A stretch of 64,000 nt of DNA from assembly GCA_947172415.1 (NCBI GenBank), contig OX359197.1, positions 1,798,001-1,862,000 of the forward strand, read 5' to 3'. This document shows, piece after piece, positions 12,901-64,000 of the stretch. Made by a program: the position numbers and the translations under genes. The notes beneath the pieces are model-generated. The model saw only the letters and a program-made list of their open reading frames with translations. It was not told where the DNA came from and did not search any database. Source of the DNA: Chondrosia reniformis. Taxonomy: Eukaryota > Porifera > Demospongiae > Chondrillida > Chondrillidae. Within the stretch, counting starts at the first letter, position 1. Each line of letters starts with the position of its first letter.

Positions 12901-15900
12901 CACTAGGATATACATATGATGCACCTATTACTGAAAGCAATTTAGCTGATCCGTTTATGCTCGTGATTCCACCTCTTGGACAACTTAGCAATGACTACAC
13001 ACTAGTATTTTCTCAAAGTGATGTCATTGGAAACTTTGAGGATGCAGTCAATTTTGTGCCTCAGATAAATTTCATTGTTCCTGCAGCGGATTTTGACAGA
13101 GGAGAGCTGATCTTGAACAACAGAGCTGTAGATATTAATTTTACTGCTATACATGATTCCTCTGGAGAGGTTGCGGCTTATGGAGCTCAATTTGTTCCCA
13201 ATGTTGATCCTACTGCACCTACCAGTCCATTTTCAGCTCGTTTCTCTGGAAGGGGAACTACCTTAGGAGTCCTGGTGTATGCTTGGTACAGAGAAACTGC
13301 ATATGGATATCCTGGTGGAATGAAAGTTGACTCTATTGCTGGTGAGTCTGGTCAAAAGGATTTAGCTTAGTAATGAATTGTCCGAGTTGTTGATTATCTC
13401 ATTATCAATCCAATAAATTATATTTACACTTAAATCTTTCCAGTTCCAATCTATTGCCCAATAAGTGAACCACAACCAGTTGGCTCTGAAACATCTGGTG
13501 AAATTCTTGTTCCAATTAGCAGAACCGGTGTGGTTGAAGGAGAAGCTTGTGTCCAATTTGAGGTTGGCAATGGGACAGCTATTGGTAAGTTATTAATTCC
13601 CAAACTCCTTTTCTTTTGAAAGGAATATATATATACTACTTGTTAATGTACTGACTCATTGATTAATGAATTATCAGGTATGTATATTATATTTTAATAA
13701 AGTTAATAAAGATTATAGAGTTGAAGATGACATGTGCTGTTTTGAGGCAGGAGAAAGAACAACTCAATGTAGGATTGTAGTGATTACAGATGGTGATGCT
13801 GAGGAAGATGAGACACTTCACTTTAAGATAGTTCCCACTGCAGACAATTGTGTCTGTAGTGACAATTTAGTTGTTACAATTATCAAAGATGTTCAACGTG
13901 AGTTTGAAAACATTTTTCCTTATTGTAACACTATGATACAGTCAATATCACTATTGTAGATTATGAACCAAAGGATATTATAGTGCAATTTGACCAAACT
14001 GAATATTCAGTAGCTGAAAATGGAGGTTTTGTATCGTTGCAACTTATAGCTGACAAGCCAGCTCCAGAGGGGGGATATAGTGTTATGATATCTTTTGCTG
14101 ATGGTTCTGCAGGTTAGATGATATATTATAATACTTAATTGGTGCTAACTTCTTATCATTAAGGATGTCCAATTTGTTGTAATACATATCCACACACTAA
14201 TTTGAAAAGCCATCTTCTTTACTCATCTTATGCTGTTTATGCTGTATGTATAAAGTATGTGAAAGAGTATATGTGAAAAAGTGAAACCAACTGTAAAGAG
14301 TATAATACGTACATGTTTCAATGTATTGTACAATATAAAATTTGCATAAGTGATTCTATTTCTAGTTGTGAAGCTCTTATTGATTGGCAAACATGTACCT
14401 GTTTGTTAAATTAAATTTGTCCATTTACGTACGTATGTGCGTATATATGAAGATGTTATCTTCAGAACAGAGACAGTAGCTATAGGAGTAAGAGGACTCT
14501 TATTGATAATTTTTACATGTTTGGTGGATTAAAAGTGCTAAAAAGGATGTGTTAGGACCAATTACTCCCAAATAATGTAGCCAAAAGTGGTTATACCTGG
14601 TCTAGTTGTGAATAATACATATATACTATTGAACGTGTTCAGGACAATTCCAGGTGGATTTACATTATATCCGGGATGACTGTAAATGTATGTATAATGT
14701 ATAATCTACATATTGGTAATGAAGAGAAAGAATTGGCATTGTTAATTGTTAATGATTAGATTAATATAATACTTAAACTACGTATATTCTATATTTGTGA
14801 TAATTTATTAGGATTACAGGACTATGACAACATGTCTTTGACAGTCTTTTTTGATGAAGGACAAACAACAGCTACTGCAGATGTTAAAATTGAAGATGAC
14901 ACTCTCCTTGAGCATCTAGAGACATTTACTGGACAACTGTCACTTCCTGAAGGCACTGCAGATTTCATTACGATAGGACCCAGTGACAAAGCCACTATTG
15001 ATATTACTGATAATGATGCTGTTGAGGTCAACTTTGATCCATCTATATATTCTGTCTGTGAGAATGATGGATCAGTTGAACTAATATTAGTTGCCAATGC
15101 ATCGGCATCTTATGGCTATTCTGTTACTGTTGACACATTTGATGTAACAGCTAGTAAGTAGCTTCGTAAAATAGCCTATGTATACAGATACACGTACTTA
15201 CCAACTTTTAATCAAATTGTACATGATATAATATCTCATTTGTGATGTTTACTTAGGTGATGGCTCAGATTACACTGGTGGATCATTTGAGATTGACTTT
15301 CCTGCTGGTAGTACTACTGCTAGTCTAAACGTGCCAATTTTGGAAGATATCTTGCTGGAAGGGAATGAATGGTTTGGTGGTCTCCTAAGTGTTAGTGATG
15401 TTGATGGAGTGTTGGCTGGACCTGATAATATGGCTAATGTCACTATATTAGACAACAAGGGTGACATTATTGTAGAATTTGAAAAATCAGCTTACAGCTT
15501 TAATGAAGACGTAGGGGATGGGATCCTCACTCTTGTAGCAAGTGCACCAGCCCCAACTGGAGGATACAGTGTGGAAGTATCATTTGCTGATGGAACTGCT
15601 GGATGTAAGCAAAAGCCACCACATCAAGTTATCATTAAGTAAAATACATTGTGCCTGCCCTAAATACACATTTACATTGCACTCCTCAGGTGGGTGGGGT
15701 AAATTCCACAGTCAAATGTGATGACACATGCACATATTCAAGTTGTATTGTCCAATAATACACATATGGAAATTATTTACCTAATGAAATTTCTCAATTT
15801 TTTAATCAGCTCCAGGAGACTACGATGGTGCAACACAAACAGTTTTCTTCCCCGAAGGGGCTAGCTCAGTTGATTTTGCTGTACCTATTGTTAATGACAG

Positions 15901-18900
15901 CCTATTAGAAGGTAATGAAAACTTTATGGCTTATATTGAGGACATATCAGAAGCAGCAGCTGATCGGGGAGTTAGAAAAGGAGCCAGAGACTCTGCAGAA
16001 GTTACTATCACTGATAATGATTCAGTCCAGGTCAACTTCTCTCCAACCATGTATACTGTATCTGAAGATGGAGGATCAGTTGAATTGATGCTAGTTGCCA
16101 GTGGTCCTGTACCATTTAACTACTCTGTGACTGTTGACACATTTGATGGAACAGCTGGTAAGACACATCACAATACTGGTTGAAATACAGTATATAAATA
16201 ATTTTTTAGTACTAATATAAATATGCAATATTCTCCTGGTAATTCATGTTTCCTTTAAACGTACACATAGGTGATGGCTCTGATTATACTGGTGGATCTT
16301 TTGAGGTTGAATTTCCTGCTGGTAGTACTACTGCTAGCCTATCCGTGCCAATTTTGGATGATATCTTGCTGGAAGAAAATGAATGGTTTGGTGGTCTCCT
16401 AAGTGTTATTGGTGTTGATGGAGTGATGGCTGGACCTGACAATATGGCTAATGTCACTATATTAGACAACGAGGGTGACATTATTGTAGAGTTTGAAAGA
16501 TCAGCTTACAGCTTCAATGAAGATGTAGGAGATGGGATCCTCACTCTTGTAGCAAGTGCCCCAGCCCCAGCTGGAGGATACAGTGTGAAAGTATCATTTG
16601 CTGATGGAACTGCTGGATGTAAGCAAAAACTAACTCATCCAATTTTTAGTTAAATACATTTTGCCTGCCCTAAATACACATTTACATTGCACTCCTCAGG
16701 TGGGTGGCGTGAATTCCAGTCAAATGTGACGAGACATACACATTTTCAAGTTATATTGTAGCATTCTCCATTAATATATATACGCATATTGAAGTTATTT
16801 GCTTAATGAAATTTCTCATTTTTTAATCAGCTCCAGGAGACTACGATGGTGCAACACAAACAGTTTTCTTCCCCGAAGGGGCTAGCTCAATTGATTTTGC
16901 TTTACCTATTGTTAATGACAGCCTATTAGAAGGTGATGAAAACTTTATGGCTAATATTGAGGACATATCAGAAGCAGCAGCTGATCTGGGAGTTAAAAAG
17001 GGAGCCAGAGACTCTGTAGAAGTTACTATCACTGGTAAGTCAACAACTTCTTAGGAAGTGAACAAAGAGGATGGTATCGCAACCCTCATAATAGTAGCTG
17101 ATAAACCATCATCAGAGCCTTATACAGTTAATGTGGTGACATCTGATGGAACTGCTGAAGGTTAAAATGAACTATATAGTGGGTATGTTTACTATTAGAT
17201 TATCTGCAATACTACTCAGGTCTCGTGACTCCAAGTCCATAAACACCGAAGCGCTGTGGTATATGTGTTATATATGGCATTGTGAAGCCTTCCAAGCATT
17301 TATACACATTTGGTGGGATTCTTTTGACCTATATAAGAGCCTAGATCTACTATTGCAGTTATACACCAGAGTGGGCCTCTTATTGCAGTTATACACCAGA
17401 GTGGGCCTCTTATTGCAGTTATACACCAGAGTGGGCCTCTTATTGCAGTTATACACCAGAGTGGGCCTCTTATTGCAGTTATACACCGGAGTGGGCCTCT
17501 TATTGCAGTTATATACCAGAGTGGGCCTCTTATTGCAGTTATATACCAGAGTGGGCCTCTTATTGCAGTTATACACCAGAGTGGGCCTCTTATTGCAGTT
17601 ATACACCAGAGTGGGCCTCTTATTGCAGTTATATACCAGAGTGGGCCTCTTATTGCAGTTATACACCAGAGTGGGCCTCTTATTGCAGTTATACACCGGA
17701 GTGGGCCTCTTATTGCAGTTATATACCGGTTATGGAACTCAGCATCTTAGTGTTGCCCCGGCAATGACGTATAAGTCAACCAAAACGGATTTTTGCTGAT
17801 AATGGCATGCACATGCATCCTCTTCAGTCTATAGCTATACTAAGGTGTGAAAAGGAAATTGGAAGGCTGTGTGTTTAACCTTCTATGATCTGTAGAGACT
17901 ACTACTCTGTATGCAGTTGTGAATTTTAGTGTGGCTAAAGTCTTGTAGCGTTTAATATACCAGACTGTTTTTTTGGGAGTCACTTGCATCCGTGTACAAA
18001 TTCGTAACTTGCACTGTGTATAGTACTTGATTGTAATTAAACATGTACAAGTATATAAAAAACATTTACAAAAATGATGTTAGAAGTAGGAATGGTAGTG
18101 TTCACTAATACATCTACAAAAAGTATCGAAACAAGACACTGATTATATGATAAGGCTAATCATACATGTACAGAAGTTGCATATATACTGAAATTTAAGT
18201 AACTTAACCATACACTTCTGTGTTTGGGTGCACCAAGCTGAAGTAGGACAACATACATAACATAGTGTAAAACCAGATAAGGATTATGTATACCCTCACT
18301 TGTCCAGTTCCCTCACAGAACGGATGTGTGTGGATAACTGAGGTCTGACTGTATACGTACGTATATACAGTGTTGCAATTCCCAGGCATGTATATATACT
18401 TTTTATGTTTGTTGGCTTAACATGAACATGCTTGTCTCGTTATTTGACTCTGGACGAACATGCATATATAATGTGGCAATTGTAAAAAATCTACATTTTC
18501 TTCAATTAGTACTTGTAACATGGATATACATGTAGTCTGTAGATTCTTTGAAACCAATGGATACATTAGACAAACTACACACTCCCTTGCCAAATAAATC
18601 AAAATTATGCTGTTTATAGAGAATAATAATAACTATAAAAGTCTGTAGTGGAGATTCAGTTTCTAAGTACGTACGTATGTATATGCTTTTCCACCAAACA
18701 AATCTGCTAACAAGCACTAAGGATGGAGAGTTCTCTGATGTGCACTTAATTATATGCATTTATGTAAATATATACATTTGGAAAAATAGCCATGTGTATA
18801 CACATTAGGCTATAGCCTTTTGGTTACATATACGTACGTATATACGTATATCTTGAAATATTGAGTTTGTTCTGGTGCTTCTTAATTTAGCTTCATGTAC

Positions 18901-35494: not shown

Positions 35495-37533
35495 TCAGTT
35501 AATGTAAACTAGTTCAACAGAAGACTGCAAACTGCGCTTCCAATTACTATACTGCTGATAACCGCCAACTACCAAGAAAGTATCTTCACCCAAATACATG
35601 GTACCAGGTCTTATGCGCTTCTCCTTACATTCTCCAATGTAGTACCTTTTATGGTCAGTTGGGGAATAGGCTTCAATTCTTGATTGTGCTTTACAGTCTC
35701 CATTGAATCCACCAACACTGAAAATCAGGTTAGTACTAGCAAAGGATGAGGATGCCCAGTTCCTTGATTCTCCTGGGAGTTTACTCCAACATGCATGTGT
35801 GTGCTCACAATTTGCTACATTTTCTTTTGCATTTGCCCAGCTTATCTTCCATCCCATCTTGACGGGAAAAAATTTACTGGTTTTCTTTTGATGGTCATCC
35901 TTAAATCCACCATTGACTGCATACAGAGCAAATCCACAAGAAATCAGTTGCTGGTTTTGCAGAGGTCTCGGAAGTGTTAAACCTCCACCAGGCGATGACC
36001 ACTGCTTGCTGGTTACACTCAAAACATCTATGGTACCTAGGGTAATTCCCTCTATTGACCGTCCACCTGAAACAATAAGAAGATCTTCCCTTTGAGTTAT
36101 CCCAGGCCTGCTTCTGCAGGTTGGCATTGGAGGATATATTTCCTTCCATCCATCATTATCATAGCTATGCAGCTTGCTTGTAATTCTGTGTGTGTCAGAA
36201 TCTCTACCACCTATAAGTGTCAGCAATCCACCCACTGTGTCTGCTTGAGAGCAGTATTGAGGAGCTAGCTGAGGAAGAACTTTCCAAACAAAATGTTCCA
36301 AACAGAAGTATTGGATCTTCCTATTTGACTGCTCATCTTGACAAATTCCCCCTAACACAAAAATTGCTTTACCTAAACGCAGCACTGTGCAACCAGCTGT
36401 AGGTATGAGCATATTTGGCAAATTGAGTGACATTGCTTGGCCACAAGATCTTCCTTCAATCTATAAGGCAAAGATAAAATTAAATGACTAATAAGCAAAA
36501 TTGTAAATGAGTACAATGTAATGAATTCTAACCAAATTAATAGATATAGAAATCATGTTGTATCTATTAATTATTAAACGTCAATTTATCTCTTATAATG
36601 CCATTTATGTATATAATTTAAAATGGAAATTCTTACATTTCTAAGATTAGTGTCGTCTCCAAAATCCAAGGCTGACAGTATTCTTAACCTCAGTAATACC
36701 TCTCTGGTGGTGGGTCTCATTGTTGGATTATCTCTGAAGCAAGTCATGAACAGCTTCTCATAAGGGTGGGCCCCGGGTAGCTTGGCCAGATCCAGCATTC
36801 GCCTGTGGAGTTCTGGCTTGGTCCCAATAGTTTTGCTCTCCACAGTAGGTGGCTCTTGAGTAGTTGTCTCCAACATTACCACACCCAAAGAAAAAACATC
36901 ACAGGCAGTGCTAAACTCAGCCCCTTCACTGAAAAGCTCCGGAGCCAAATAAGGAACATCCCTTTGACGTTCTTCAGAAAACTTGTTCAACACAGAGGCA
37001 AAGCATCTAGCATGGCCCACATCTGTGATCTTCACCGTTTGGCATTCTTCCCCAAGTAGTACATTTTTAGGAGTTAGATTTCCGTGGACAATTGATACAG
37101 CTTGTTCATGAAGAAACAAAAGCCCAGAAGTTACATCAATGCATATTTTTCTCTGCTTGCAGGTTTCAAGTTGACCTCTATTCTTCAGAAGATATTGATC
37201 CAAGGTTTGATTGATATGTTCCACTATCAGAGACATTTGGTTTTCTCTCACGGACAATTGAATTATTTTTGCAACATTTGGGTGCTTTATCGTCATCATT
37301 CGATCACATTCTTGCTTAAATTTTTGAAGCTTCTGCAACCAATCTTCTTCACATTCGCTAACTTCCGGCAGTGTCCTCTTAAATGTCTTCACAATTACCA
37401 ATCTCCTAGCTAGTGTCTCCCTACAGACAACAGAATACGCGCCCCTCCTGATCTCCTCCATATCTCCGCTAAGATTACGACGAGTACTTGAGCTAGAAAA
37501 AGCTGTGGATCTCCAATAATATACGGAAAGCAT
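35495..37533 (-). CDS. Pseudokinase-Kelch fusion protein
   Basis: Two exons on the minus strand, 36637-37533 and 35495-36460, join in phase 0 to 620 residues. A later start at 'MEEIRRG' (residue 25) is possible. Residues 25-290 form a protein kinase domain. The lysine of 'VIVKTFK' is kept and the DFG site reads 'DVG'. The catalytic loop is 'VHGNLTPKNVLL': HRD has become HGN, as in JAK pseudokinase domains, so the catalytic Asp is missing. 'APELFSEG' and 'DVFSLGVVMLE' mark the C-lobe. Residues 300-620 carry six Kelch motifs ('VLGGI', 'LIGGR', 'VSGGR', 'VNGG', 'SVGGF', 'VVGGY'), enough for one beta-propeller. The likely role is a scaffold rather than a catalyst. No signal or membrane segment is present. 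Confidence 0.8.
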
Positions 37534-37642
37534 CCATTTGCAATAATGACGTCACCAATCAATTCAACGTCGCATGACGATTCTATTCCAAGTGTCGGTG
37601 GACGCTTATCTCCTTCCTCGTATACGGCTTTGACGGGCGGTT
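37527..37642. repeat. Inverted repeat over the kinase-Kelch 5' end, arm 1
   Basis: About 115 bp covering the first codons and promoter-proximal region, found again in inverted orientation at 38125-38243 ('cgtatacggctttg' against 'caaagccgtatacg'). See arm 2. Confidence 0.7.
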
Positions 37643-50027: not shown

Positions 50028-52245
50028 ATGTCTTCACACTGGAAAACGACATTACGGACACAATTTCACATGTATCTTTTAGACAATCTCAATGTGAAGG
50101 GTATTGTTGACCCACTGTTAGCAAATTCGCTTATTACTGAATCTCTATATACCGAGATCAGGGCAAAGGTTGCTATTAAGAATGCTAATAGCCTTTACAT
50201 GGATCACCTGAATAATAGTGGGGCTAAAGGAACGTTTGTGACATTTGTACACATATTGGCTGATTCATCAAATGAGTATCCAGTACATGGTGAAATTGTA
50301 AGGGAATTGAAGGAAGATCCAGTGCTAGGCCCAATAGTAAGTTACAGTTAATCATTTGCTGATCAGGTTTAATTTGTCATAATATATAGTTGCAGGACAT
50401 TGACGTACCCAATACTATTCCTTCTCGACCTGTAAGTAATGGAGTCCGCCCATACATTAGTGGGAGATCTTACTGCATTGGTAAGCTGTTTACAATATAG
50501 GGGAGTATAATATATATGTATAGTAGCAATGCACGACCCACGTAAATCTGTTATAAACTGTTTGTATATATGTACGCTGTGTATAGTTTTGTTATGGGAT
50601 AGGATGTGGATGGAAAAAAATACAGTCTTCTCTGGCTGGTACCATACATGTATCAATATGACATGATAAGGATTATTTTTGCGATCATTTGCATCATGAT
50701 GATAGAGAAATTCTAATGAGCCTCAGCAACACAATTATTATAAATTGAACACTTTGTAATGATGTCATGACTTTTTGCGCTGCATAATATCTTAAGATAA
50801 AAAAAGAAAAAAGTGGCGCAAAAAATTATGTCTTCATCACTCATTCCCCATCACCCGTTTTCTATTTAAACCTGGCTGTAATCTCCCTCATTCATTGCTG
50901 ATGAAGACCTTCTGGTCGAAACGTTCAATTTATAATCATTGTGTTGGTGAGGCTCATTAGAATTTCTCTATCATGTTCAATATCCACAGTACAATGATTA
51001 CCCCTTGTTCACTTAGAGAATGATATGCCCCAGTTGTATTACTGTAGAGTCTGTGTATGTATAGATACTTAATTAGCTTCTTTTTTCAAATTCCTTTAAG
51101 GCTATTATACTATAAAGTTTAATTGTACTTATTTGTATACAGCAAATATTCAATAACTTTTGTGTAGTCACTATACATATACTCATGCATGTGTAATTCA
51201 TTATAATTGAAAACTGTCTCATAACTCTCTAATCAGTCAAAGTCCTAACAATTTTCAAAATACTAAACCTGCAAAAATACTACAGCTATAATATATAGTA
51301 TATTTATGGTGATGTTGGTGATGATGATGAGGTCTGATGGATGGTGAACGTAAACCAACCATTTGTGGATTTAGTACACCAGCATTTTTACAGTGTGATG
51401 TTGTGTCAAATTACATATGCACACTACACAGGTGGATCTGTGGCCACATGGACGTGCATTATAGTAGTAGTTGGAGTTGCAGTAGTGATACCAATCTTCT
51501 GTACAAGGGCAAGGGATTCAGGTTTTTGCTCCAAAATTCCTCAAATATTCCCCTCAAATGGTAAGCCTGGAGAGGGCACATTAGACAATGGAAAAGTGTC
51601 TCCCGGTAAGAGTAATGAGTATGGCAACTCCAAAGGTATGTGTATACTGTATGTACTGTATATGTGCGTACATAGTACTCCATGACTCTCTATTGTTGTT
51701 GGGATCTTGGAGGTATATTATTCAATAAATACTGCCTATGATCTTTATTACTGTTTCTCCTTTTTCTGAATCGCTCCAAAACAACTTCTATGTACATTTA
51801 CACATATGCTCTATTTTGTATTACATTACAGGCCGCACTAATAAAGAAATAAAGAAATGTGATTCTTGGAATGATTGCTTAGAAAAGAATTATTTTTCAT
51901 ATCTCACTGACAAACTGAATGTGAAAGGGATTGTAATAAGACTGAGAGAAGGTGGTCTTATTTCCTGGGAACTCCAAGATGAGATAGAAGGAACCAGATC
52001 TGGCCATGAAGCTAATGCACTCTATATAAAACACCTGATTAGAAATGGTATTAAAGATACATTTAGAACTTTTGTAAACATTTTGAGAGATTCATCCGAA
52101 GAATTTAATATACATGGAGAAATAGCTAGTACATTCAGACAGGATCCAATGTTAAATACTGTTGTAAGTCATGCATAAACTACTCTTGATTGTTTTACTA
52201 TTACATGCTTGTACCTCCATTCTACAGCTGACAGTTGAAGACTAG
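50028..52245 (+). CDS. Membrane-anchored CARD protein, unit A
   Basis: Five exons fit in phase to 315 residues: 50028-50336, 50396-50480, 51432-51635, 51832-52163, 52228-52245. The first exon is a death-fold (CARD-like) domain ('YLLDNLNVKGIVDPLLANSL', 'TFVTFVHILADSS'). Exon 3 starts with one membrane helix ('CIIVVVGVAVVIPIF'). Exon 4 is a second CARD ('YFSYLTDKLNVKGIVIRLRE', 'TFRTFVNIL'). The last exon adds LTVED and stops. A single helix between two CARDs would put them on opposite sides of the membrane, so the first exon may belong to another transcript. An alternative ATG at 51341 would give a protein with only the helix and second CARD. Exon 2 has two usable donors. It probably acts as an adaptor with the GTPase gene that follows 491 bp later. 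Confidence 0.6.
50698..50973. mobile_element. Palindromic element with 'gatgaagacc' core (MITE-like)
   Basis: Arms 'gatagagaaattctaatgag' and 'ctcattagaatttctctatc' with inner arms 'gcctcagcaacacaatta' / 'tgtgttggtgaggc'. The centre has 'gctgatgaagaccttctgg' and 'gtcgaaacgttc'. The counterpart in unit B (58648-58865) lacks this centre. Confidence 0.7.
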
Positions 52246-52736
52246 TTAAGTACGGCAGCAGAAACTGGTTTAGCTCTCTGTCTCCTTCAGGATTCATTTC
52301 CTGTCACATGTTAACTTTTGTAATATATTTAACTTCGGAGCTGTAGTCTGGCTTCCTAGACCTTCCCTAAACAAGTGTAGAATAACCAGATTATGCAATC
52401 TGTTACTACAATACAACTAGCACGTTAATAAAGCTATACATTGCGCTGTTAACGTATTCCACAAATACTGCTGTGTTCTAGCTACAAATTATTATTTATT
52501 TCGGCCATTTTGCATAGTTTGAATGTCGTATATTTACGAATAGACTACAGGTAGTAAGGAATAGCTGGTCACCAGTGAATTTTAAGCTTATTGCTCTTCA
52601 GAAGGGGTTGTAAATATTAATGTAAGTAAGAAATGAACTAATTAGTCTATATTATAAACGTTGTGCTGCATCTCCGATTCTGCCAACCTATATACCTATG
52701 TTTTTCCGTCTAGTTAATTCTCAATTTTGCCGACAA

Positions 52737-55700
52737 ATGGATCTCTTATTCTACTACTACCAAAAAGGTAAGCGATACATTTGTTCAAAAAATCATCCAT
52801 ATACATATTCACAGTGACATGAGCATGCGATTTCAATTTCGTTATTATTTGTAGGTAGTACGATAGTGTTACTGATAATATTGGTAACAGTCTGTCTCCC
52901 TGCTGCAACAGTAGAGGATGAACTTGGATATTGTACAGATGAAAGCGATTGTGCTAAAAAACTTGAAAATCCACTCTACAAATATTCAGGTGCAGATGAG
53001 TACATTTCACTTATCCGAGTTACTAATAATTATAAATTAACATTAATGTCATATATTGTAATTGCACATCAAATATTCAAGCGACATATTATATATCATA
53101 TTTTCCCTGGCCCTTTATTTGAGCTAACCTACATTCTATATACATATACCATAATTCTGAAATTGTATTGCAAAGCTAACCTTTAAACTGTCTTTGCCGG
53201 TGAGTCCTATTAGTGGCAATCAAATGAATCTAAATGATCTATATACAATTTAGTATATATCCTATTTCACTGCTCCCGCCATTCATTCTATACTTACAGA
53301 ATGTGCCAACCAAAAACTGAAGAAATGTGATACTTGGAGGGAATGCTTAGAATTGAATTATTACGTAGACCTTGTGAATAAACTGAACATACAAGGAATT
53401 GTGGCTGAACTGAGACAACATCGCCTTATTACACAACCACTTTATGATGAAATAACAGGAACGGTTGTTGGTCAAACTGCTAACACACTATATATACAAC
53501 ACCTTGTTAGAACCGGAGTTGAAGAAACATTTGGAAAGTTTGTTAAAGTTTTAGAAGAAACTTCACAGGACTTTGCTATTCATAGGGAGATTTTGAATAC
53601 TTTTTGGTGTGATGCAATGTTAGGGACCATTGTAAGTTCTTATGTAAGCATAAACAAGTTTCATACCTTAATTTGAAACCTGGCAGTTTATCAAGTTTCA
53701 AATGGTTTTATGGTATATATATGAATCTTGAGATTCAATCCTTTGATCATGATGTACTTGAGTAAATATTTTCATTTTTCTTACCACTAATGCACACCTA
53801 TACATAATTCATGTGTAAACAGTGACCTCAATCACTTCTGAATTATGGTCAGCTCTTAAAGGTCTGTAACAATCATATATAATTTGCCAATGTGAAGCTT
53901 ACTATAACGCATGCAGCCACGTGTACAGCTCACCATTTGAGGAGTCTGCCAGACCAGACCTCCTTTGCAGTCCTCTGCAGATCTCTGATTAATGTATGTA
54001 CATGGCCAGTTGACTATGCCCCTCTAATAAGGCAACATAAGTTCAGCCGACCCAATACTGACTGCATTGCTAGCTTCACTGTCTATTTAAATGAGGTGCC
54101 ATGGGATGTCAGGCATATATGGGTTCCGACCAGTGTTGTTCCACTGTATAGGAGGAGATGTGAGATAGTCATTATTTTACACATGTACATATTTGACTAC
54201 ATACCTGTCTCTGTATCCGTGCATGTAGATGAGTTTGTATGATGTTACCAGGCCAAATTGGAAGGCAGTGTTTAATGGTTAGTCTGATGGTTGCATCTAT
54301 CCTTATGCTTATCCTTATCTGGGACCATGCACTGTAAAGTAGCCAATTGCTAAGTCATATATACGTATACCTGTTCTAATATTACCAATTCAAAAATGCA
54401 TTGATTTATATATAATTAATTTAAAGATTAAAGAAGTCATTATATACTAGTATATATATATATCATTCAATACAGCTAATCTCAGTAAGGAGGAAGTGAA
54501 ACTATTGATTAAGCCTAAAATTGATGCAAATGACAGAACCTGGATGCTGCTTAGTAACACTGGCGTTGGGAAGAGCACGTTTGGTAATTTCCTGCTTAAT
54601 GACAATGTCTTTGAAGTATCTAAATATGGGTCAGCAGAAATGGGTCTTTCCATGACTGTGAAATCAGAAATGCATAGTACTCAATATCAACAACGAAAAT
54701 TGTATGTAATTGATACACCAGGACTTGGTGATACTGGTAGAATTGGGAAGAGAAATACTGAAGCCAAAGAATTTGCTAATGAAGTGGCTCATCTTAGCAT
54801 TGAACTTAGTAAGGCTTTGCTAATGGCAAAAAATGGTATTCACACCTTTTTCGTAATGATACGAGCTGATGATAAAAGTCATTATGGAACTGAAAAACTC
54901 TTACAGCTATTAGATATTTTTGGAGACTTGTGGAGTCATACAGTGTTATGTTTAACTCATGGTAAATCTTACAGAACTTCATCTGATGAGCAGAGAAGCA
55001 ACTTCAATAAAATGCTTGCTGATGAAAGAGCACCTCAACCACTCAAGGATATTGTGAGGAAATCTGGTGGTCGGTTCGTTATTGTTGAAGGACAGAATTT
55101 GAATGAAAGTCAAGATTACAGAGAAGAGAAGGTTGCTGAAATAGTGAACATCTCAGATGAGATAGTACAGCAACATGGTGTATACAATGATTTGCTACAA
55201 ACCTTAGCTTTAAAATACTTTGATGCTGCAAAGTTGGAGCTACGTCACCAATACAACCCTGAAGGCCCTGAAATCATTGAACCAGCATGGCAGAGAGCTT
55301 TTCAAAAAATTAGTGAAAAAGTTTATGAAATTGTGCTTATAAAATTGGCTGAGGGTAGTGATACTGAAGTGATAAAGAAAATTGTAGCTCTAAAGGAGGA
55401 GGAGTTAGAGAATGTCTATCAGTACAATGATAAGCTAGAAAAAGAGGTTTTAAAGGAAAAGGAAGAAAGAAGAAAGGTGGAAGAAGAAAATGCTCGTATT
55501 AAAAAGGAAAAGGATATTCAAAAGGAAAGGGCAAGAAAAGCAGAAGAGGAGGAAAGAAGACTTAAAAGAGAAGTAGATGAGTATCTAGCTAAGCCAATCT
55601 TTGCAGAAAGGAGAATTACTTATGATGTTGATTCAGGCTGGCATAGTTGGGAACATAAATATTCAGGTTTCGTTAGATGGCAATATAAATACACTGCAAC

Positions 55701-55830
55701 TGCTAAAGACGAGGGATCAGGAATTACAGCAGAAGCTCAACACTATGATTCTGAACATGGTGCCAAAGAACACGCCAGGGAGAACCTGAGGGCCAAGCTA
55801 CTGCACAAAGGAATAATTCGCAAGGACTAG
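52737..55830 (+). CDS. CARD-AIG1/GIMAP-type GTPase, unit A
   Basis: Five exons in phase give 633 residues: 52737-52767, 52855-52989, 53300-53631, 54229-54277, 54476-55830. Residues 11-28 are a signal peptide or anchor ('IVLLIILVTVCLPAA'). About 56-166 is a CARD ('YYVDLVNKLNIQGIVAELRQ'). The GTPase follows from about 190, with P-loop 'SNTGVGKST', G3 'DTPGLGDTG' and G4-like 'LTHGKSY', then 'GGRFVIVEGQN'. This is the AIG1/IAN (GIMAP) family. Residues 484-554 form a charged coiled coil, and the C-terminus is basic ('GAKEHARENLRAKLL'). The first P-loop Gly is Ser here but Gly in unit B. Such GTPases assemble on membranes in vertebrate lymphocytes and plant defence. An immune role is inferred from domain content. 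Exon 54229 begins with ATG and could be an alternative start. Confidence 0.7.
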
Positions 55831-56467
55831 ACATAGAAACAAGTACCTGAAATGCATTTTAGTGTAGCTAGCTATTCAATTTCGCAGGGGTATCAAGTTG
55901 ACAATATGAAAATGAGTGATATCAGTCAGCAGTGCGCATAGTCTTGTACCCAGCCCCAACTTCCGCAAAAATGGCTGACGCCATCTTCCGCAGTGTCAGC
56001 CATTTTTGCGGAAGTTGGGGCTGGGTACAAGACTACAGTGCGCATTAAACTACATTGGGGGGCGCCGCCATTTTCGTTACTAAGGATTATGTAATCTTTA
56101 GGAGACTCTTCCAGCTTCCTGTTCGTGTTGCCTATCCCGTTATTGTTCGTGTATCTATGCTCTGACTTGGTCTCCAGTTGAACCGTTGTCGAATATCCGC
56201 ATGAACATGTGTTCAGCTACAAGCGACAGTAGCTGATAACGCAACTTTCAAGTCTGGTACTGGGAACATATGAACGAGGACTGAGTGATTAAGCCTCAGC
56301 CACGTTAGCAGCTAATGCATGAGAAGTGTTTCTGTATGAGTGTGAGAGTGAGAAATCTTTCGAATGCGTGTGTCACACGGCCAATGCATGTGTCACATGG
56401 CCAATGCGTGTGACTTGACAGGCCTGATTTTGATTTGTGATTTATAAATTTAAAATTTGATCAATTC
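55831..56467. other. Inserted sequence after the unit A GTPase
   Basis: Unit B/C spacing shows that 'attcaatttcg' should be followed directly by 'atttgtgatttataaatt'. Here about 550 bp (roughly 55885-56433) interrupts it, including a foldback element. The rest has no recognised gene. Confidence 0.5.
55940..56034. mobile_element. Foldback MITE with 10-bp direct repeats
   Basis: Arms of about 40 bp ('agtcttgtacccagccccaa' inward to 'ttccgcaaaaatggctgac') separated by about 15 bp. Both flanks read 'cagtgcgcat', consistent with a 10-bp target duplication as seen for Mutator-like elements. Confidence 0.75.
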
Positions 56468-57966
56468 ATTGCCATCTCCCAAATCAATTCTTCTTCCTTG
56501 TGCCTAGCAGATCTAACGTTCCAGGTACCTAATCAATACACTTTATCTTTATCTTCATTCTTCGTCAGCGATAGCATCTTAGTTTCTTCGATGGGTTGTC
56601 AAATCAAAGACAGGAATCCCGACGCGAAGGCTCAAAACGCCGACATACCAAACAAGCAGTAATTGTGCCAGTGCATAAGAAAGGAAGCAAGTTGAAATGT
56701 GAGAAGGGGCATAAGCCTCCTCAGCATCCCAAGTAAGGTCTATGCGAGGATACTGGATAAAAGGACAAGAGATGTGACGGAAAGCAAGGTACTTGAAGCT
56801 CAGTTTTTTTTAGAAAGGGTAGAAGTTGTACGGACCAGCTCTTTACCATAAGACAAATGAGTGAGAAGATGTTAGAGAAGAACAAGAAGATGGTGGTGGC
56901 ATGTGTGGATTTGGAAAAGGCCTACGATAGGGTGGGTGGAGATAAGCTGTGGAATGTGTTAGAGGAATATGGTGTGAAGGGAAGACTGCTGAGGGCCATT
57001 AGATCATTGTACAAGAAGAGTCTGGCTTGTGTCAGAGTGAAGGATGAGTTGTCGGACTGGTTTCCAATAACACAAGGAGTGAGGCAGGGCTGTGTTATGT
57101 CAGCATGGCTATTTAATGTGTTTATGGACAAGATAGTAAGAGAGGGAATAGAGAGCTTTGTAGGAGGTGTGAGGATGTCAGTGCTGTTTGCGGATGACGT
57201 GATGCTACTAACAGAGAGGAAGGAGGACATGGAGACAAATTTGAGGGAGTTAAAGAAGGCAATGAGTAATTGGGGAAAGAAGAAACATTAGGGCAAAACT
57301 AAAGTGATGAGGGTTAGTAAGCAAGTAGAAGAATGCAAAGTGTGTGTGGATGGGGAAGAGATAGAGCAAGTGCAAAACATGGGAGCTATCCTGAGTGCAG
57401 ATGAGACATGTGAAGAGGAAATTGAACACAGAGTGGGTGCAGCGGCCAGAGTGATAGGAGCTATGAGGAAGGAGGTGCTAGAAAGAAGGGAGTTGAAGAA
57501 AGCCACGAAGATGAGGGTGTATAATGCAATGGTGATGCCAACCATGTTGTATGGCAGTGAAACATGGACAATGATGAAGAGGTACGAAAGCAGACTAGGG
57601 ACAACAGAAATGGCTTATAATTATCTGAGAAGAGTAGAAGGAGTGTCAAGGATTGACAGAGTAAGGAATGCAGATGCGAGGGAGGCAGTGAGGCAAGAGG
57701 AGGTGATGGAGAAAGTGAAAAGGAAACAAAGAACATGAAAGGAGAAGTTGGAGAAGATGGAAGATGACAGACTAGTGAAGAAGGTGTACACTGAGGAAAT
57801 TGTAGGGAAAAGGCCAAGAGGAAGACCGAGAAAGAAATGGATAGACAATTTCTAGCTATATATATATAAACTCAATTGTAGTATTAATTATTGTATGTAT
57901 ATAGCGGCAACCTCCTGCATAGGAGATAAGCTATGGTGCAGATTGATCATGATTGATTGATTGAGA
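56468..57966 (+). mobile_element. 5'-truncated non-LTR retrotransposon, inactive
   Basis: Encodes parts of a reverse transcriptase in several frames with stops. They include an N-terminal RT block ('IVPVHKKGSKLKC'), 'ACVDLEKAYDRV', 'ITQGVRQGCVMSAWLFN' and the catalytic 'LFADDVMLL' near 57191. The frame is broken at 57291 but continues as 'LYGSETWTM' (57540). The 3' end has simple repeats. The insert is flanked by 'ttgatcaattc' on both sides (56457 and 57967), which fits a target-site duplication. The endonuclease part is absent. Confidence 0.8.
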
Positions 57967-57990
57967 TTGATCAATTCGAACAAAGAAAAA

Positions 57991-60145
57991 ATGGCTGACG
58001 AAATCAACGCATCCCCGAATGCTGCAGCTGAATTGATAGAAAAGCCTCATTATCATGAAGTATCTGGGACCTTGCAAGTGTTTCTTGCATTGGCCTTTTC
58101 ACTTTGGTTTTCGTTATGATTCTAGGTAAGTGTTCGATATTTAATTGGATACCTATCTAGCTACCCGACCGACCAATATAGCTGTATACTTCACAGTTTT
58201 CACACGCGAATGGATAAATTAGTAGCACTGCATGCTTAGTAGTACTGCATGTTTATACGTAGCACTCATAGGTGCCAACTTTCCAAAATTTACTTCAGGG
58301 ACACCTTGTATGTAGGCATGAAATTGATTACATAATACATGATATCATCATATAAAATGGAGGGAAGGTAGCAGTCCGCGTGTAAGCCAAACTAGTCCAA
58401 TATGCACATTAGTATAATTTGGTGTGCCTTAATATTCAGTGTTGCCTTTAGTTATGGGTCCACTTGTGTATTTGGGAAAGTGACATTGCATGACAATGAG
58501 AACAGATATTGTATAAAGGTATAGTAAGAATTAATGTGTAATATGTGATATTTTTAGAATTAGATTATATTGTTATAGCAATATGATTAAAGGAACTAGT
58601 TGTAAGTAATGGAGTCCGCCCATACATTAGAGGGTGATGAGGGTAATGATCATGAGCCTCAGCAACACAAATATTATAAATTGAACTTTTCATGATGATG
58701 TCATGATTTTTGCGTTGCATAATATCTTAAGATAAAAAAAGATAAAAATTGCACAAAAAATCATGTTTTCATCACTCATTCCCCATCACCCGTTTTCTAT
58801 TTAAACCTGGCTGTAATCTCCATAATAATTGTGTTGCTGATGCTCATTAGAATTTCTCTATCATGTTCAATATCCACAGTACATTGATTACCCCTGTTCA
58901 CTTAGAGAATGATATGCACCAATTGTATTACAGTAGAGTCTGTATATGTATAGATACTTAATTAGCTTCTTTTTTCAAATTTCTTTAGGGCTATTATACT
59001 ATAAAGTTTTATTGTACTTATTTGTATACAGCAAATATTCAATACCTTTTGTGTAGTCACTATACATATACTCATGCATGTGTAATTCATTATAATTGAA
59101 AACTGTCTAACTCTCTAATCAGTCAAAGTCCTAACAATTTTCAAAATACTAAGCCTGCAAAAATACTACAGCTATAACTTTTTATGGTGATGTTGGTGAT
59201 GATGATGAGGTCTGATGGATGGTGAACTTAAACCAACCATTTGTGGATTTAGTACACCAGCATTTTTATAGTGTGATGTTGTGTCAAATTACATATGCAC
59301 ACTACACAGGTGGATCTGTGGCCACATGGACGTGCATTATAGTAGTAGTTGGAGTTGCAGTAGTGATACCAATCTTCTGTACAAGGGCAGGGGATTCAGG
59401 TTTTTGCTCCAAAATTCCTCAAATATTCCCCTCAAATGGTAAGCCTGGAGAGGGCACATTAGACAATGGAAAAGTGTCTCCCAGTAAGAGAATGACTTCT
59501 GGGGATGAAACAAGGGATACTTTGAAAACTAGTAATGAGTATGGCAACTCCAAAGGTATGTGTATACTGTATGTACTGTATATGTGCGTACATAGTACTC
59601 CATGACTCTCTATTGTTGTTGGGATCTTGGAGGTATATTATTCAATAAATGCTGCCTATGATCTTTATTACTGTTTCTCCTTTTTCTGAATCGCTCCAAA
59701 ACAACTTCTATGTACATTTACGCATTTGCTCTATTTTGTATTACATTACAGGCCGCACTAATAAAGAAATAAAGAAATATGATTCTTGGAATGATTGCTT
59801 AGAAAAGAATTATTTTTCATATCTCACTGACAAACTGAATGTGAAAGGGATTGTAATAAGACTGAGAGAAGGTGGTCTTATTTCCAGGCAACTCCAAGAT
59901 GAGATAGAAGGAACCAGATCCGGCCATGAAGCTAATGCACTCTATATAAAACACCTGATTAGAAATGGTATTAAAGATACATTTAGAACTTTTGTAAACA
60001 TTTTAGGAGATTCATTCGAAGAATTTAATATACATGGAGAAATAGCTAGTACATTCAGACAGGATCCAATGTTGTAAGTCAAGCATAAACTACTGTAGTG
60101 TGTTTTACTATTACATGCTTGTACCTCCATTCTACAGCTGACAGC
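57991..60145 (+). CDS. Membrane-anchored CARD protein, unit B (probably damaged)
   Basis: Exons: 57991-58125 ('MADEINASPN...', helix region), 59310-59555 (helix 'CIIVVVGVAVVIPIF'), 59752-60073 (CARD), then a short end exon near 60137. Exon 1 has five extra bases in its helix region compared with the copy at 63876, so the frame is lost before the donor. An ATG at 59219 could still start a protein in the next exon. The exon 59310-59555 is 42 bp longer than in unit A. The CARD exon lost 10 bp at its end, so the tail becomes a quick stop. It lacks the first CARD exon of unit A. Treat as a decaying copy or an alternative isoform. Confidence 0.5.
58602..58866. repeat. Unit B copy of the intron with the palindrome, centre deleted
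   Basis: Homology to unit A begins at 'tgtaagtaatggagtccgcc' (50431 / 58602). It loses 50467-50690 and keeps the outer arms of the palindrome. The 'gatgaagacc' centre is missing. Confidence 0.6.
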
Positions 60146-60708
60146 TGAAGACTAGTTAAGTACGGCAGCAGAAACTGGTTTAGCTCTCTGTCTCCTTCAG
60201 GATTCATTTCCTGTCACATGTTAATTTTTGTAATACCTAAATTATATTTTACCAGCTTCGGAGCTGTAGTCTGGCTTGCTAGACCTTCCCTAAACAAGTG
60301 TCCAGTGTAGAATAACCAGATTATGCAAACTGTTACTACAATACAACTAGCACGTTAATAAAGCTATACATTGCGCTGTTAACGTATTCCACAAAATACT
60401 GCTGTGTTGTAATTCTATAATATATCGGCCATTTTGCATAGTTGAAATGTCGTATATTTCTACTGTATTTACGAATAGACTACAGGTAGTAAGGAATAGC
60501 TGGTCACCAGTGAATTTTAAGCTTATTGCTCTTCAGAAGGGGTTGTAAATATTAATGTAAGTAATAAATGAACTAATTAATCTATATTATTTGGACTACA
60601 GTATTAGTGCTTTATTCGAAGTATATGTAACGTTTTGCTCTAATTCAGCATCTGACAACCTACATACCTATGTTTTTCCGTCTAGTTAATTCTCAATTTT
60701 GCCGACAA

Positions 60709-63700
60709 ATGGATCTCTTATTCTACTACTACCAAAAAGGTAAGCGATACATATAATTTGTTCAAAAAATCATCCATACAGTGACATGAGCATGCGATTT
60801 CAATTTCGTATTATTTGTAGGTAGTACGATAGTGTTACTGATAATATTGGTAACAGTCTGTCTCCCTGCTGCAACAATAGAGGATGAACTTGGATATTGT
60901 ACAGATGAAAGCGATTGTGCTAAAAAACTTGAAAATCCACTCTACAAATATTCAGGTGCAGATGAGTACATTTTACTTATCCGAGTTACTAATAATTATA
61001 AATTAACATTAATGTCATATATTGTAATTGCACATCAAATATTCAAGCGACATATTATATATCATATTTTCCCTGGCCCTTTATTTGAGCTAACCTACAT
61101 TCTATATACATATACCATAATTCTGAAATTGTATTGCAAAGCTAACCTTGAAACTGTCTTTGCCGGTGAGTCCTATTAGTGGCAATCAAATGAGTCTAAA
61201 TGATCTATATACAATTTAGTATATATCCTATTTTCACTGCTCCCGCCATTCATTCTATACTTACAGAATGTGCCAACCAAAAACTGAAGAAATGTGATAC
61301 TTGGAGGGAATGCTTGGAATTGAATTATTACGTAGACCTTGTAAATAAACTGAACATACAAGGAATTGTGGCTGAACTGAGACAACTTCGCCTTATTACA
61401 CAACCACTTTATGATGAAATAACAGGAACGGTTGTTGGGAAAACTGCTAACGAACTATATATACAGCACCTTGTTAGAACCGGAGTTGAAGAAACATTTG
61501 GAAAGTTTGTTAAAGTTTTAGAAGAAACTTCACAGGACTTTGCTATTCATAGGGAGATTTTGAATACTTTTTGGTGTGATGCAATGTTAGGGACCATTGT
61601 AAGTTCTTATGTAAGCATAAACAAGTTTCATACCTTAATTTGAAACCTGGCAGTTTATCAAGTTTCAAATGGTTTTATGGTATATATATATATGAATCTT
61701 GAGATTCAATCCTGTGATCATGATGTACTTGAGTAAATATTTTCATTTTTCTTGCCACTAATGCACACCTATACATAATTCTTGTGTAAACATTGACCTC
61801 AATCACTTCTGAATTATGGTCAGCTCTTAAAGGTCTGTAACAATCATATATGCACTTTATAATTTGCCAATGTGAAGCTTACTATAACGCATGCAGCCAC
61901 GTGCACAGCTCACCATTTGAGGAGTCTGCCAGACCAGACCTCCTTTGCAGTCCTCTGCAGATCTCTGATTAATGTATGTACATGGCCAGTTGACTATGCC
62001 CCTCTAATAAGGTAACATAAGTTCAGCCGACCCAATACTGACTGCATTGCTAGCTTCACTGTCTATTTAAATGAGGTGCCATGGGATGTCAGGCATATAT
62101 GGGTTCCGACCAGTGTTGTTCCACTGTATAGGAGGAGATGTGAGATAGTCATTATTTTACACATGTACATATTTGACTACATACCTGTCTCTGTATCCGT
62201 GCATGTAGATGAGTTTGTATGATGTTACCAGGCCAAATTGGAAGGCAGTGTTTAATGCATATGGTTAGTCGAATGGTTGCATCTATCCTTATGCTTATCC
62301 TTATCTGGGACCATGCACTGTAAAGTAGCCAATTGCTAAGTCATATATATACGTATTCAAATTCAAAAATGCATTGATTTATATATACGTAATTATTTTA
62401 ATGATTAAAGAAGTCATTATACTAGTGTATATATATCATTCAATACAGTTAGTCTCAGTAAGGAGGAAGTGAAACTAGTGATTAAGCCTAAAATTGATGC
62501 AAATGACAGAACCTGGATGCTGCTTGGTAACACTGGCGTAGGGAAGAGCACGTTTGGTAATTTCCTGCTTAATGACAATGTCTTTGAAGTATCTGAATAT
62601 GGGACAGCACAAATGGGCCTTTCCATGACTGTGAAATCAGAAATGCATAGTACTCAATATCAACAACGAAAATTGTATGTAATTGATACACCAGGACTTG
62701 GTGATACTGGTAGAATTGGGAAAGGAAGTACTGAAGCCAAAGATTTTGCTAATGAAGTGACTCACCTTAGCATTGAACTTAGTAAGGCTTTGCTAATGGC
62801 AAAAAATGGTATTCACACCTTTTTTGTAATGATACGAGCTGATGTTAGAGATCATTATGGAACTGAAAAACTCTTACAGCTATTAGATATTTTTGGAGAC
62901 TTGTGGAGTCATACAGTGTTATGTTTAACTCATGGTAAATCTTACGGAACTTCATCTGATGAGCAGAGAAGTAACTTCAATGAAATGCTTGCTGATGAAA
63001 GAGCACCTCAACTACTCAAGGAAATTGTGAGGAAATCTGGTGGTCGGTTCGTTATTGTTGAAGGACAGAATTTGAATGAAAGTCAAGATTACAGAGAAGA
63101 GAAGGTTACTGAAATAGTGAACATCTCAAATGAGATAGTACAGCAACACGGTGTATACAACGATTTGCTACAAACCTTAGCTTTAAAATACTTTGATGCT
63201 GCAAAGTTGGAGCTACGTCACCAATACAACCCTGAAGGCCCTGAAATCATTGAACCAGCATGGCAGAGAGCTTTTCAAAACATTAGTGAAAAAGTTTATG
63301 AAATTGTGCGTATAAGATTGGCTGAGGGTAGTGATACTGAAGCGATAAAGAAAATTGTAGCTCTAAAGAAGGAGGAGTTAGAGAATGTCTATCAGCACAA
63401 TGATAAGCTAGAAAAAGAGGTTTTAAAGGAAAAGGAAGAAAGAAGAAAGGTGGAAGAAGAAAATGCTCGTATTGAAAAGGAGAAGGAGATTCAAAAGGAA
63501 AGGGCAAGAAAAGCAGAAGAGGAGGAAAGAAGACTTAAAAGAGAAGTAGATGAGTATCTAGCTAAGCCAACCTTTGCAGAAAGGAGAATTACTTATGATG
63601 TTGATTCAGGTTTCTATAGATGGCAATATAAATATAGTGCAACTGCTAAAGACGAGGGATCAGGAATTACAGCAGAAGCTAAACACTATGATTCTAAAGA

Positions 63701-63773
63701 TGGTGCCAAAAAACACGCCAGGGAGAACCTGAGGGCCAAGCTACTGGACAAAGGAATAATTCGCAAGGACTAG
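60709..63773 (+). CDS. CARD-AIG1/GIMAP-type GTPase, unit B
   Basis: Same five-exon layout as unit A, 625 residues: 60709-60739, 60821-60955, 61267-61598, 62209-62263, 62449-63773. The signal or anchor, CARD and GTPase are highly similar. The P-loop is canonical ('GNTGVGKST'). The linker exon is 6 bp longer, which keeps phase and supports its being coding. Unit B lacks the 10-residue insert near 'SGWHSWEHKYSGF' seen in unit A. A second donor at 61166 would extend exon 2 by 210 bp in the same phase. That extension is open here but has a stop in unit A. The C-terminus 'KHYDSKDGAKKHARENLRAK' is basic and helix-like. Confidence 0.72.
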
Positions 63774-63875
63774 ACATAGAAACAATTACCTGCAGTACAT
63801 TTTAGTGTAGCTAGCTATTCAATTTCGATTTGTGATTTATAAATTGAAAATTTGATCAATTCGAACAAAGAAAAA

Positions 63876-64000
63876 ATGGCTGACGAAATCAACGCATCCC
63901 CGGATGCTACAGCTGAATCGATAGAAAAACCTCATTATCACGAAGTATCTGGGACCTTGCAAGTGTTTCTTGGCCTTTTCACTTTGATTTTCGTTATGAT
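63876..64000 (+). CDS. First exon of a third unit (partial, runs off the window)
   Basis: Copy of 57991 without the 5-bp insertion: 'MADEINASPDATAESIEKPH', then an intact helix start ('VFLGLFTLIFVM'). If the donor at the same place is used, it ends in phase 1 and would join the helix/CARD exon type of units A and B. This shows the array continues beyond 64000. Confidence 0.6.
   Translation, partial: MADEINASPDATAESIEKPHYHEVSGTLQVFLGLFTLIFVM

Follow-up and report, generated by a model that had tools for sequence, protein, structure and literature searches.

A young tandem duplication of CARD-like and AIG1 GTPase exons in the demosponge Chondrosia reniformis

A 64-kb stretch of chromosome 9 of the demosponge Chondrosia reniformis (positions 1798001-1862000; the whole stretch is hereafter called the window) carries a real and young duplication; the immune gene family concerned is of a known kind, and the locus is an anatomical variant of it. 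Two neighboring genes are involved. Gene 1 is predicted to encode an adaptor with two CARDs in tandem, separated by a transmembrane exon that could be skipped. Gene 2 would contain one exon for a hydrophobic segment, one for a CARD, and a last one that encodes an AIG1/GIMAP GTPase followed by a coiled coil and a C-terminal domain with no known relatives. A later tandem duplication copied gene 2 whole and gene 1 minus its first CARD. An earlier note on this DNA had described a tandem array of paired genes with a third unit starting at the edge; two duplicated units were indeed found, but neither a third one nor the full pair in each unit. Our best explanation, that of a sponge innate-immunity or cell-death locus made of these two genes, has as a whole about an even chance of being right.

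Exon models were built by six-frame reading, family hidden Markov models (HMMs), and splice-site scores from a generic matrix set by hand; splice sites were picked by eye and then scored, and the exon chains are predicted models. The genome searched comprised 15 contigs and 117,379,552 bases. The searches for the family CARD, Death, and NACHT scored 150 of 172, 150 of 220, and 101 of 139 candidates, respectively, and counts derived from them are therefore lower bounds.

The GTPase Exon of Gene 2

The last exon of gene 2 encodes an AIG1 GTPase in both units, as the earlier note had proposed. With the Pfam AIG1 model, it scored 74.2 bits in unit 1 and 79.3 bits in unit 2 (cut-off of 27 bits), and other GTPase families scored lower. 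When the unit-2 exon was compared with PDB, the human GIMAP4 and GIMAP7 structures came out on top, with GIMAP4 as the best match (E = 3.3e-8). The P-loop and DxPG are GTPase motifs; in unit 2, the P-loop GNTGVGKST is intact and DTPGLGD is present. The charged helix that follows the GTPase has 72 residues in unit 2, 61% of them charged, and its best heptad register was reached by 0.56% of 5000 shuffles in a simple test that used no dedicated predictor, which agrees with the coiled coil suggested before. The C-terminal domain of about 70 residues gave no Pfam match (three copies at E ≤ 10 and a fourth at 0.01) and no PDB match at E ≤ 10, either with one copy or with a four-copy profile; a double-stranded RNA-binding reading, suspected by look, is accordingly not claimed. 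The nearest relative of the window GTPase protein lies at C9:1318261-1319502 and is 47% identical over the GTPase, coiled coil, and C-terminal domain. A copy of the C-terminal domain (41-42%) was also observed at L036 (C6:5839801-5841600), after a CARD that is over the Pfam cut-off (34.9 bits) and with no GTPase between them.

Genome-wide, there were 44 AIG1 matches at E ≤ 0.001, some of them two domains within one frame, and 40 were over the cut-off, two of these only together with in-frame neighboring matches. The same model matched 12 of 14 control prokaryote genomes, in 8 of them over the cut-off, and some of the 40 may therefore be P-loop GTPases of other kinds; at L022 (C8), the septin score was above the AIG1 score. 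Beyond the window, AIG1 loci were read in five smaller stretches.

The CARD-like Modules

Five modules of about 100 residues, namely, CARD-A, CARD-B, and CARD-C in unit 1 and the copies of the latter two in unit 2, belong to a large family. Used as a query, CARD-C gave at least 144 genome matches at E ≤ 0.001: itself, the four local relatives, and at least 139 other places (best E = 1.0e-16), indicating that the similarity among the modules is more than chance. Beyond its own copy, the closest relative of CARD-C among the matches listed is CARD-B of gene 1. We aligned 24 of the 29 family members found in the window and in fetched loci; 14 of the 24 matched Pfam CARD at E ≤ 0.1 (best 3.6e-7), and the best of ten members scanned singly reached 23.8 bits, just below the cut-off of 23.9. 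The profile of the 24 members was then compared with PDB, and all ten sequences found at E ≤ 1 were CARD-bearing (best 0.0053): seven caspase chains, five of them named caspase-9, MDA5, a zebrafish GBP-related protein, and ASC. The Pfam CARD model itself found 25 places in the genome and none in the 14 control prokaryote genomes; four of the 25 overlap places of the window family, the closest being C7:6036029, which is over the cut-off (30.3 bits) and matches a window module with E = 3.5e-6. Bits from our five-sequence CARD HMM were not used as evidence for the five sequences that built it. Relatives over the Pfam CARD cut-off, relatives upstream of NACHT, and the CARD-bearing PDB hits suggest that the window modules are best read as CARDs.

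The family is concentrated on chromosome 2 (87 of the 144 listed matches). Among the matches listed, a family CARD lies at most 3 kb upstream of 7 of 101 NACHT and 16 of 142 Death domains; 13 of the latter 16 are on chromosome 2, and 9 of these 13 Death matches contain a stop codon. A Death domain precedes 13 of 101 NACHT matches within the same distance. Of the 14 control prokaryote genomes, 11 also had NACHT matches, which exceeded the cut-off in 3 of them. A family CARD was found within 9 kb upstream of 6 of the 44 AIG1 matches (two in the window, three in an array on chromosome 7, and the septin-like L022 on C8), and a Pfam-CARD match, with all 25 considered, upstream of two (C4:669031 and C7:6042860); at this distance, none of the 44 was preceded by a Death domain among the Death matches listed. 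Moreover, at L013 and L014 (chromosome 2) and L026 (C13), the family CARD exon comes after a long GTPase-like frame of the DTGGQ type, for which Pfam gave sub-threshold matches to Roc (0.0021) and COR-A (0.003) at L013 and to COR-A (7e-5) at L026; a comparable long frame at L016 (C4) had no Pfam match at 0.01. By eye, L014 looked Roc/COR-like, and Kelch-like frames were seen at L013 and L026. As far as such frames can be read, the family CARD is repeatedly placed beside putative NTPase switches in this genome.

The chromosome-7 array (C7:6036001-6115000; L017, L019, L020, and L021) repeats a CARD exon, two unidentified exons, and a degenerate-AIG1 frame with a P-loop such as GPFGHGKAT (AIG1 E = 5.5e-7 at L019), after which a glycine-rich hydrophobic stretch matches apolipoprotein L below the cut-off (5.6e-4). 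It may encode a CARD-linked, membrane-inserting relative of the GTPase.

The Duplication

The blocks 50716-55884 and 58652-63827 correspond at 92-96% identity over five BLAST-paired blocks, in line with the recent duplication that the earlier note had seen. Between 58580 and 58638, the sequence switches from an intron of the downstream gene (equal to 64193-64217) to the linker exon of gene 1 (equal to 50431-50468), indicating that the duplicated segment ran from the second exon of gene 1 to intron 1 of the next gene. The breakpoint at 50431 lies in the second exon, and unit 2 is consequently without a CARD-A exon; a full second copy of gene 1 was thus rejected, since the junction leaves no copy of this exon. 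The reverse transcriptase frame between the units appears LINE-like (long interspersed nuclear element) by reading.

The copies differ by 3 insertions or deletions (indels) in 2349 aligned exon bases versus 22 in 2699 other bases (Fisher p = 0.0004), and by 66 versus 105 substitutions in the same bases (p = 0.035). This alignment leaves out CARD-A and the gene-1 linker; three stretches were counted as non-exon, namely, the terminal exon of 18 nucleotides (nt), the longer version of the hydrophobic exon, and the candidate linker described below. The exon limits used differ by at most a few bases from the final ones. Two of the three exon indels, of 42 and 30 nt, keep the frame, and the third, of 10 nt, is at an exon end. 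These data suggest that, since the duplication, the frames have been kept and the sequence constraint has been weak. Positive selection on the AIG1 exon was considered and dropped, as its ratio of nonsynonymous to synonymous substitution rates (dN/dS) of 0.98 showed no excess. Divergence drops near the first exon of gene 2, which does not differ between units: 52300-52699 has 31 substitutions in 393 aligned bases and 52700-52899 has none in 189, and either conversion or constraint may account for this stretch.

Gene Models and Hydrophobic Exons

In unit 1, gene 1 is modeled with five exons and all phases matched, giving 315 residues in the order CARD-A, linker, transmembrane segment, CARD-B, and LTVED-stop (Table 1). 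The start of the gene is uncertain because, upstream of the proposed ATG, the CARD-A frame stays open and includes both an earlier ATG and a hydrophobic stretch. The first, hydrophobic, and CARD-C exons of gene 2 join in frame. A longer form of this hydrophobic exon, to 53199, has a stronger donor; it contains an in-frame stop in unit 1 and is open in unit 2. In the unit-2 CARD-B exon, the 10-nt length change at the 3' end alters the exit phase. The earlier note had proposed a membrane-anchored CARD protein in each unit; hydrophobic exons do precede CARD-B and CARD-C, but the first gene of unit 1 is modeled as CARD-transmembrane-CARD, and its unit-2 counterpart is without the first CARD. For either hydrophobic exon, the genome search gave only two matches at E ≤ 1, namely, those in the two units. 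The lengths of these exons are divisible by three and both of their ends are in phase 1, so they are predicted to be skippable in frame.

Table 1. Predicted exons and other features of the duplicated region, in window coordinates.
Feature	Position	Strand	Basis or remark
Gene 1 CARD-A exon, proposed start ATG, phase 0 out	50028-50336	+	37% to CARD-C (E = 4.6e-16); donor ATA/gtaagt
Gene 1 linker exon, phase 0 in, 1 out; holds breakpoint 50431	50396-50480	+	Splice sites, in-frame assembly, junction
Gene 1 transmembrane exon, 204 nt, phase 1-1	51432-51635	+	Hydropathy 2.59 over 19 residues
Gene 1 CARD-B exon	51832-52163	+	50% to CARD-C (E = 1.1e-32); phases fit
Gene 1 proposed terminal exon, LTVED-stop	52228-52245	+	Exon phases
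Gene 2 first exon, MDLLFYYYQK	52737-52767	+	Donor ranks within the top 0.2% of the region's GT sites
Gene 2 hydrophobic, signal-anchor-like exon, 135 nt, phase 1-1	52855-52989	+	Phases, hydropathy
Gene 2 CARD-C exon, phase 0 out	53300-53631	+	Family search query; splice scoring
Candidate linker exon, unit 1, 49 nt, not established	54229-54277	+	Relaxed splice thresholds
Gene 2 last exon, unit 1: AIG1 GTPase, coiled coil, C-terminal domain	54476-55830	+	Pfam AIG1 1.2e-20
Insertions between units, incl. reverse transcriptase frame	55885-57967	.	Not at the same place after unit 2; RVT_1 4.2e-26
Duplicated 5' end of downstream gene, ATG 57991	57950-58220	+	Frame-shifted vs. copy at 63833
Tandem-duplication junction, 4 shared bases	58601-58604	.	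Downstream-gene intron joined to gene-1 linker exon
Unit 2 transmembrane exon copy, 42 nt longer, in frame	59310-59555	+	Unit alignment, phases
Unit 2 CARD-B copy, no CARD-A before it	59752-60073	+	48% to CARD-C (E = 4.2e-29)
Unit 2 gene 2 first exon	60709-60739	+	Splice scoring
Unit 2 gene 2 hydrophobic exon	60821-60955	+	Phases; genome match
Unit 2 CARD-C exon	61267-61598	+	97% to CARD-C
Candidate linker exon, unit 2, 55 nt (6 nt longer), same phases, not established	62209-62263	+	Counterpart of unit 1
Unit 2 AIG1 GTPase, coiled coil, C-terminal domain	62449-63773	+	Pfam AIG1 3.3e-22
Start of downstream small membrane-protein gene, ATG 63876 (supposed third unit)	63833-64000	+	Repeat search, frame reading

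Weighing of Alternative Explanations

The points that weigh against our best explanation concern the union of CARD-C with AIG1, the membrane topology, the P-loop of unit 1, the identity of the modules, and the constraint on the copies. The earlier note had assumed one protein with CARD, AIG1, and coiled coil; the last two do share an exon, but a frame common to CARD-C and AIG1 was not shown. The CARD-C donor leaves phase 0 and the best AIG1 acceptor, 844 bases away in unit 1 and 850 in unit 2, needs phase 1, so fusion would require an additional linker exon. Conversely, skipping of CARD-C would leave the hydrophobic exon and AIG1 in frame with each other in either unit, and the CARD-C frame continues to its own stop, 14 codons beyond the donor. 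Splicing might thus separate the parts, with the hydrophobic exon joined either to CARD-C, ending in a retained intron, or to AIG1, which would yield membrane CARD adaptors and a membrane AIG1 GTPase but no fusion. We consider this possible but on balance unlikely, for the following reasons. The 49- and 55-nt candidate linkers would restore the frame in both units and give models of 633 and 625 residues, although such candidates are common by chance: with relaxed thresholds, two of 40 nt or more exist in the unit-1 intron, and at least one as good turned up in 81 of 300 dinucleotide-shuffled versions of it. On chromosome 4 of the same genome (L037), CARD, linker, and AIG1 join in frame, followed by a coiled coil, in a 543-residue model in which CARD (34.0 bits) and AIG1 (64.4 bits) are both over the Pfam cut-offs; the splice sites were hand-picked, and one of the two acceptors is weak. 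The nearest AIG1 relative (L033, C9:1318001-1325500) can also join an upstream exon in frame, through weak splice sites, to give 530 residues. That exon is 23% identical (E = 0.007) to one sponge Death domain, but, as Pfam gave no match, PDB two irrelevant ones at E of about 1, and BLAST only this weak one, a Death reading was rejected, and we call it death-like. A CARD-GTPase fusion in the window is, in terms of these models, possible. Two further observations were made at such loci: at L034 (chromosome 4), a sub-threshold CARD (19.3 bits) lies about 4.3 kb before AIG1, and at L033 the same GTPase may have exchanged its CARD for a different death-fold domain.

As for the topology, the flanks of the gene-1 segment carry charges of +2 and +2, and those of gene 2 carry 0 before and -5 after the segment. 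A single transmembrane segment would put the two CARDs of gene 1 on opposite sides of the membrane, and by the positive-inside rule the charges of gene 2 suggest a non-cytosolic CARD/GTPase, which fits a cytosolic membrane scaffold badly. Skipping of the hydrophobic exons would resolve both problems. The first glycine of the P-loop is replaced in unit 1 (SNTGVGKST), where DTPGLGD is present. The copies could, moreover, be decaying, with unit 2 turning into a pseudogene, perhaps along with gene 1 of either unit, and only one CARD/AIG1 gene functional. This would agree with the missing first exon of gene 1 in unit 2, with the frame shift in the captured upstream exon of the downstream gene, and with a dN/dS near 1 (0.83 pooled over 766 codons, besides the AIG1 value given above), but both 1.3-kb AIG1 exons are open, and exon indels are rarer than those outside and mostly keep the frame; we therefore judge such decay improbable. 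Finally, the modules might be an unrelated helical domain. None of them passed the Pfam CARD cut-off (best 14.2 bits, for CARD-A), the two of unit 2 had no Pfam CARD match at E ≤ 1, and none is among the 25 genome matches of that model; against CARD or CARD_2, the best scores of the modules are 12-14 bits, a level that other families equal or surpass, and in the CARD-B frame an unrelated phage family scores higher (19.5 bits, under its own cut-off). SCAPER_N was also matched by 7 of the 24 family members (best 8.3e-4). The CARDs of the earlier note hence hold through relatives and not through direct matches of the window modules. Since four Pfam CARD matches overlap family places, with C7:6036029 as the closest, family members precede NACHT, and the PDB hits of the profile are CARD-bearing, we regard a non-CARD identity as very improbable.

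Proposed Mechanism

Our preferred explanation, the two-gene immune locus, would work as follows. With GTP bound, the AIG1 domain would oligomerize together with the coiled coil, as proposed for GIMAP2/5, and thereby cluster the CARDs. These may then nucleate homotypic assembly, either with the products of gene 1 or with further CARD proteins that the sponge has in the same family; this assembly could lead to a caspase or NF-kB type output. To our knowledge, vertebrate GIMAP2/5 are without CARD. The locus would thus likely function as a GTP-controlled, CARD-nucleating immune scaffold. In a bolder variant, the two genes would form a membrane CARD switch found only at this locus, whose phase 1-1 hydrophobic cassettes decide whether the adaptor and the CARD-AIG1 GTPase are soluble or bound to the membrane. 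This switch would be part of a scheme general to sponges, with one CARD family placed on three classes of nucleotide switch (NACHT, Roc/COR-like, and AIG1); we hold this variant to be rather doubtful.

Downstream Gene and Other Features

The repeat at the edge of the window, taken in the earlier note for the start of a third unit, matched in the genome only itself and 57950-58220. It is read as the first exon of a small, probably single-pass membrane-protein gene, unrelated to the pair, whose 5' end was caught in the duplication. The CARD and AIG1 HMMs found nothing in the 29 kb after the window, and a third CARD-AIG1 unit was thus discarded; on the opposite strand after this gene, there are frames with PEX11 and WH2 matches. 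Elsewhere in the window, protein-kinase and Kelch-repeat frames adjoin at 35498-37551 on the minus strand and are perhaps one gene, and an IgGFc-binding-like frame is followed by Calx-beta-like frames, one of which was tested, at 11919-16650 on the plus strand. Self-comparison also revealed an array of a roughly 41-base tandem repeat at L010 (C9, about 1873130-1874018).

Comparison with Known Systems

The comparisons made here draw on excerpts of the cited papers. The earlier note knew of no named system with this pair; however, proteins with DD-CARD, AIG1, and coiled coil, e.g., Bg8770, have been described in the snail Biomphalaria glabrata (PMC7053062), and CARD plus AIG1 in lancelets (PMC12373286). 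The snail proteins share with the sponge locus the CARD, which is N-terminal in the snail, the AIG1 GTPase, and the coiled coil, and the AIG genes of Biomphalaria also show splice variants with and without CARD, transmembrane segments in 12 genes, and tandem arrays (PMC7053062). The sponge locus differs in the hydrophobic exon before the CARD, the C-terminal domain of about 70 residues, and the neighboring CARD-transmembrane-CARD gene. In the excerpted text, the sponge Amphimedon is entered as without AIG, as far as known (PMC7053062). The lancelet GIMAPs likewise couple CARD to AIG1, recurrently with HINT, in a fast-changing and often dispensable immune family (PMC12373286); in contrast, HINT was not among the Pfam matches of the sponge exons. 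That study, which included homologues from Halichondria panicea, called the recurrent GIMAP architectures unique to amphioxus among animals (PMC12373286), a claim that the predicted chromosome-4 model qualifies for CARD plus AIG1. In the glass sponge Aphrocallistes vastus, an AIG1 expansion has been reported (PMC10282587). A sponge CARD-AIG1 gene was not found in the open-license literature searched, in the excerpts available; a CARD-transmembrane-CARD neighbor did not turn up there either, no search having been aimed at it.

Other systems resemble parts of the locus. GIMAP2/5, for which a GTP-dependent scaffold has been proposed, share the AIG1 domain, coiled coil, and hydrophobic anchor, but the anchor of GIMAP5 is C-terminal, unlike that of sponge gene 2 (PMC8201404). 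Zebrafish Gbp4 is an immune GTPase with a CARD that acts through an inflammasome, but it belongs to the GBP class and not to AIG1, and its CARD is C-terminal (PMC4932187). The known sponge CARD-NACHT-LRR receptors (NLRC; PMC12909245) also have a CARD beside a nucleotide-binding switch, and relatives of the window CARDs precede NACHT in C. reniformis; they differ in having NACHT in place of AIG1, and no NACHT was among the Pfam matches of the window exons. One gene of Dysidea avara combines Ig domains with a CARD and is listed as responding to microbial patterns (PMC6208332); as a sponge CARD joined to receptor-like domains, it is comparable in spirit to gene 1, but a Pfam scan of three gene-1 exons gave no Ig match. 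Amphimedon proteins, in turn, carry one to three death-fold domains followed by TRADD-N (PMC8195603).

Collectively, the pairing of CARD with AIG1 is already known from snail and lancelets, and what we describe is a new sponge variant of it, not a new system, produced by a simple duplication with an exact junction. The coupling reported for a mollusc and lancelets is thereby carried to sponges, so an early-animal origin can be tested against the repeated invention of CARD-driven GTPase switches, and one sponge CARD family reused beside several nucleotide switches offers a concrete place to ask how animal death-fold signaling was assembled.

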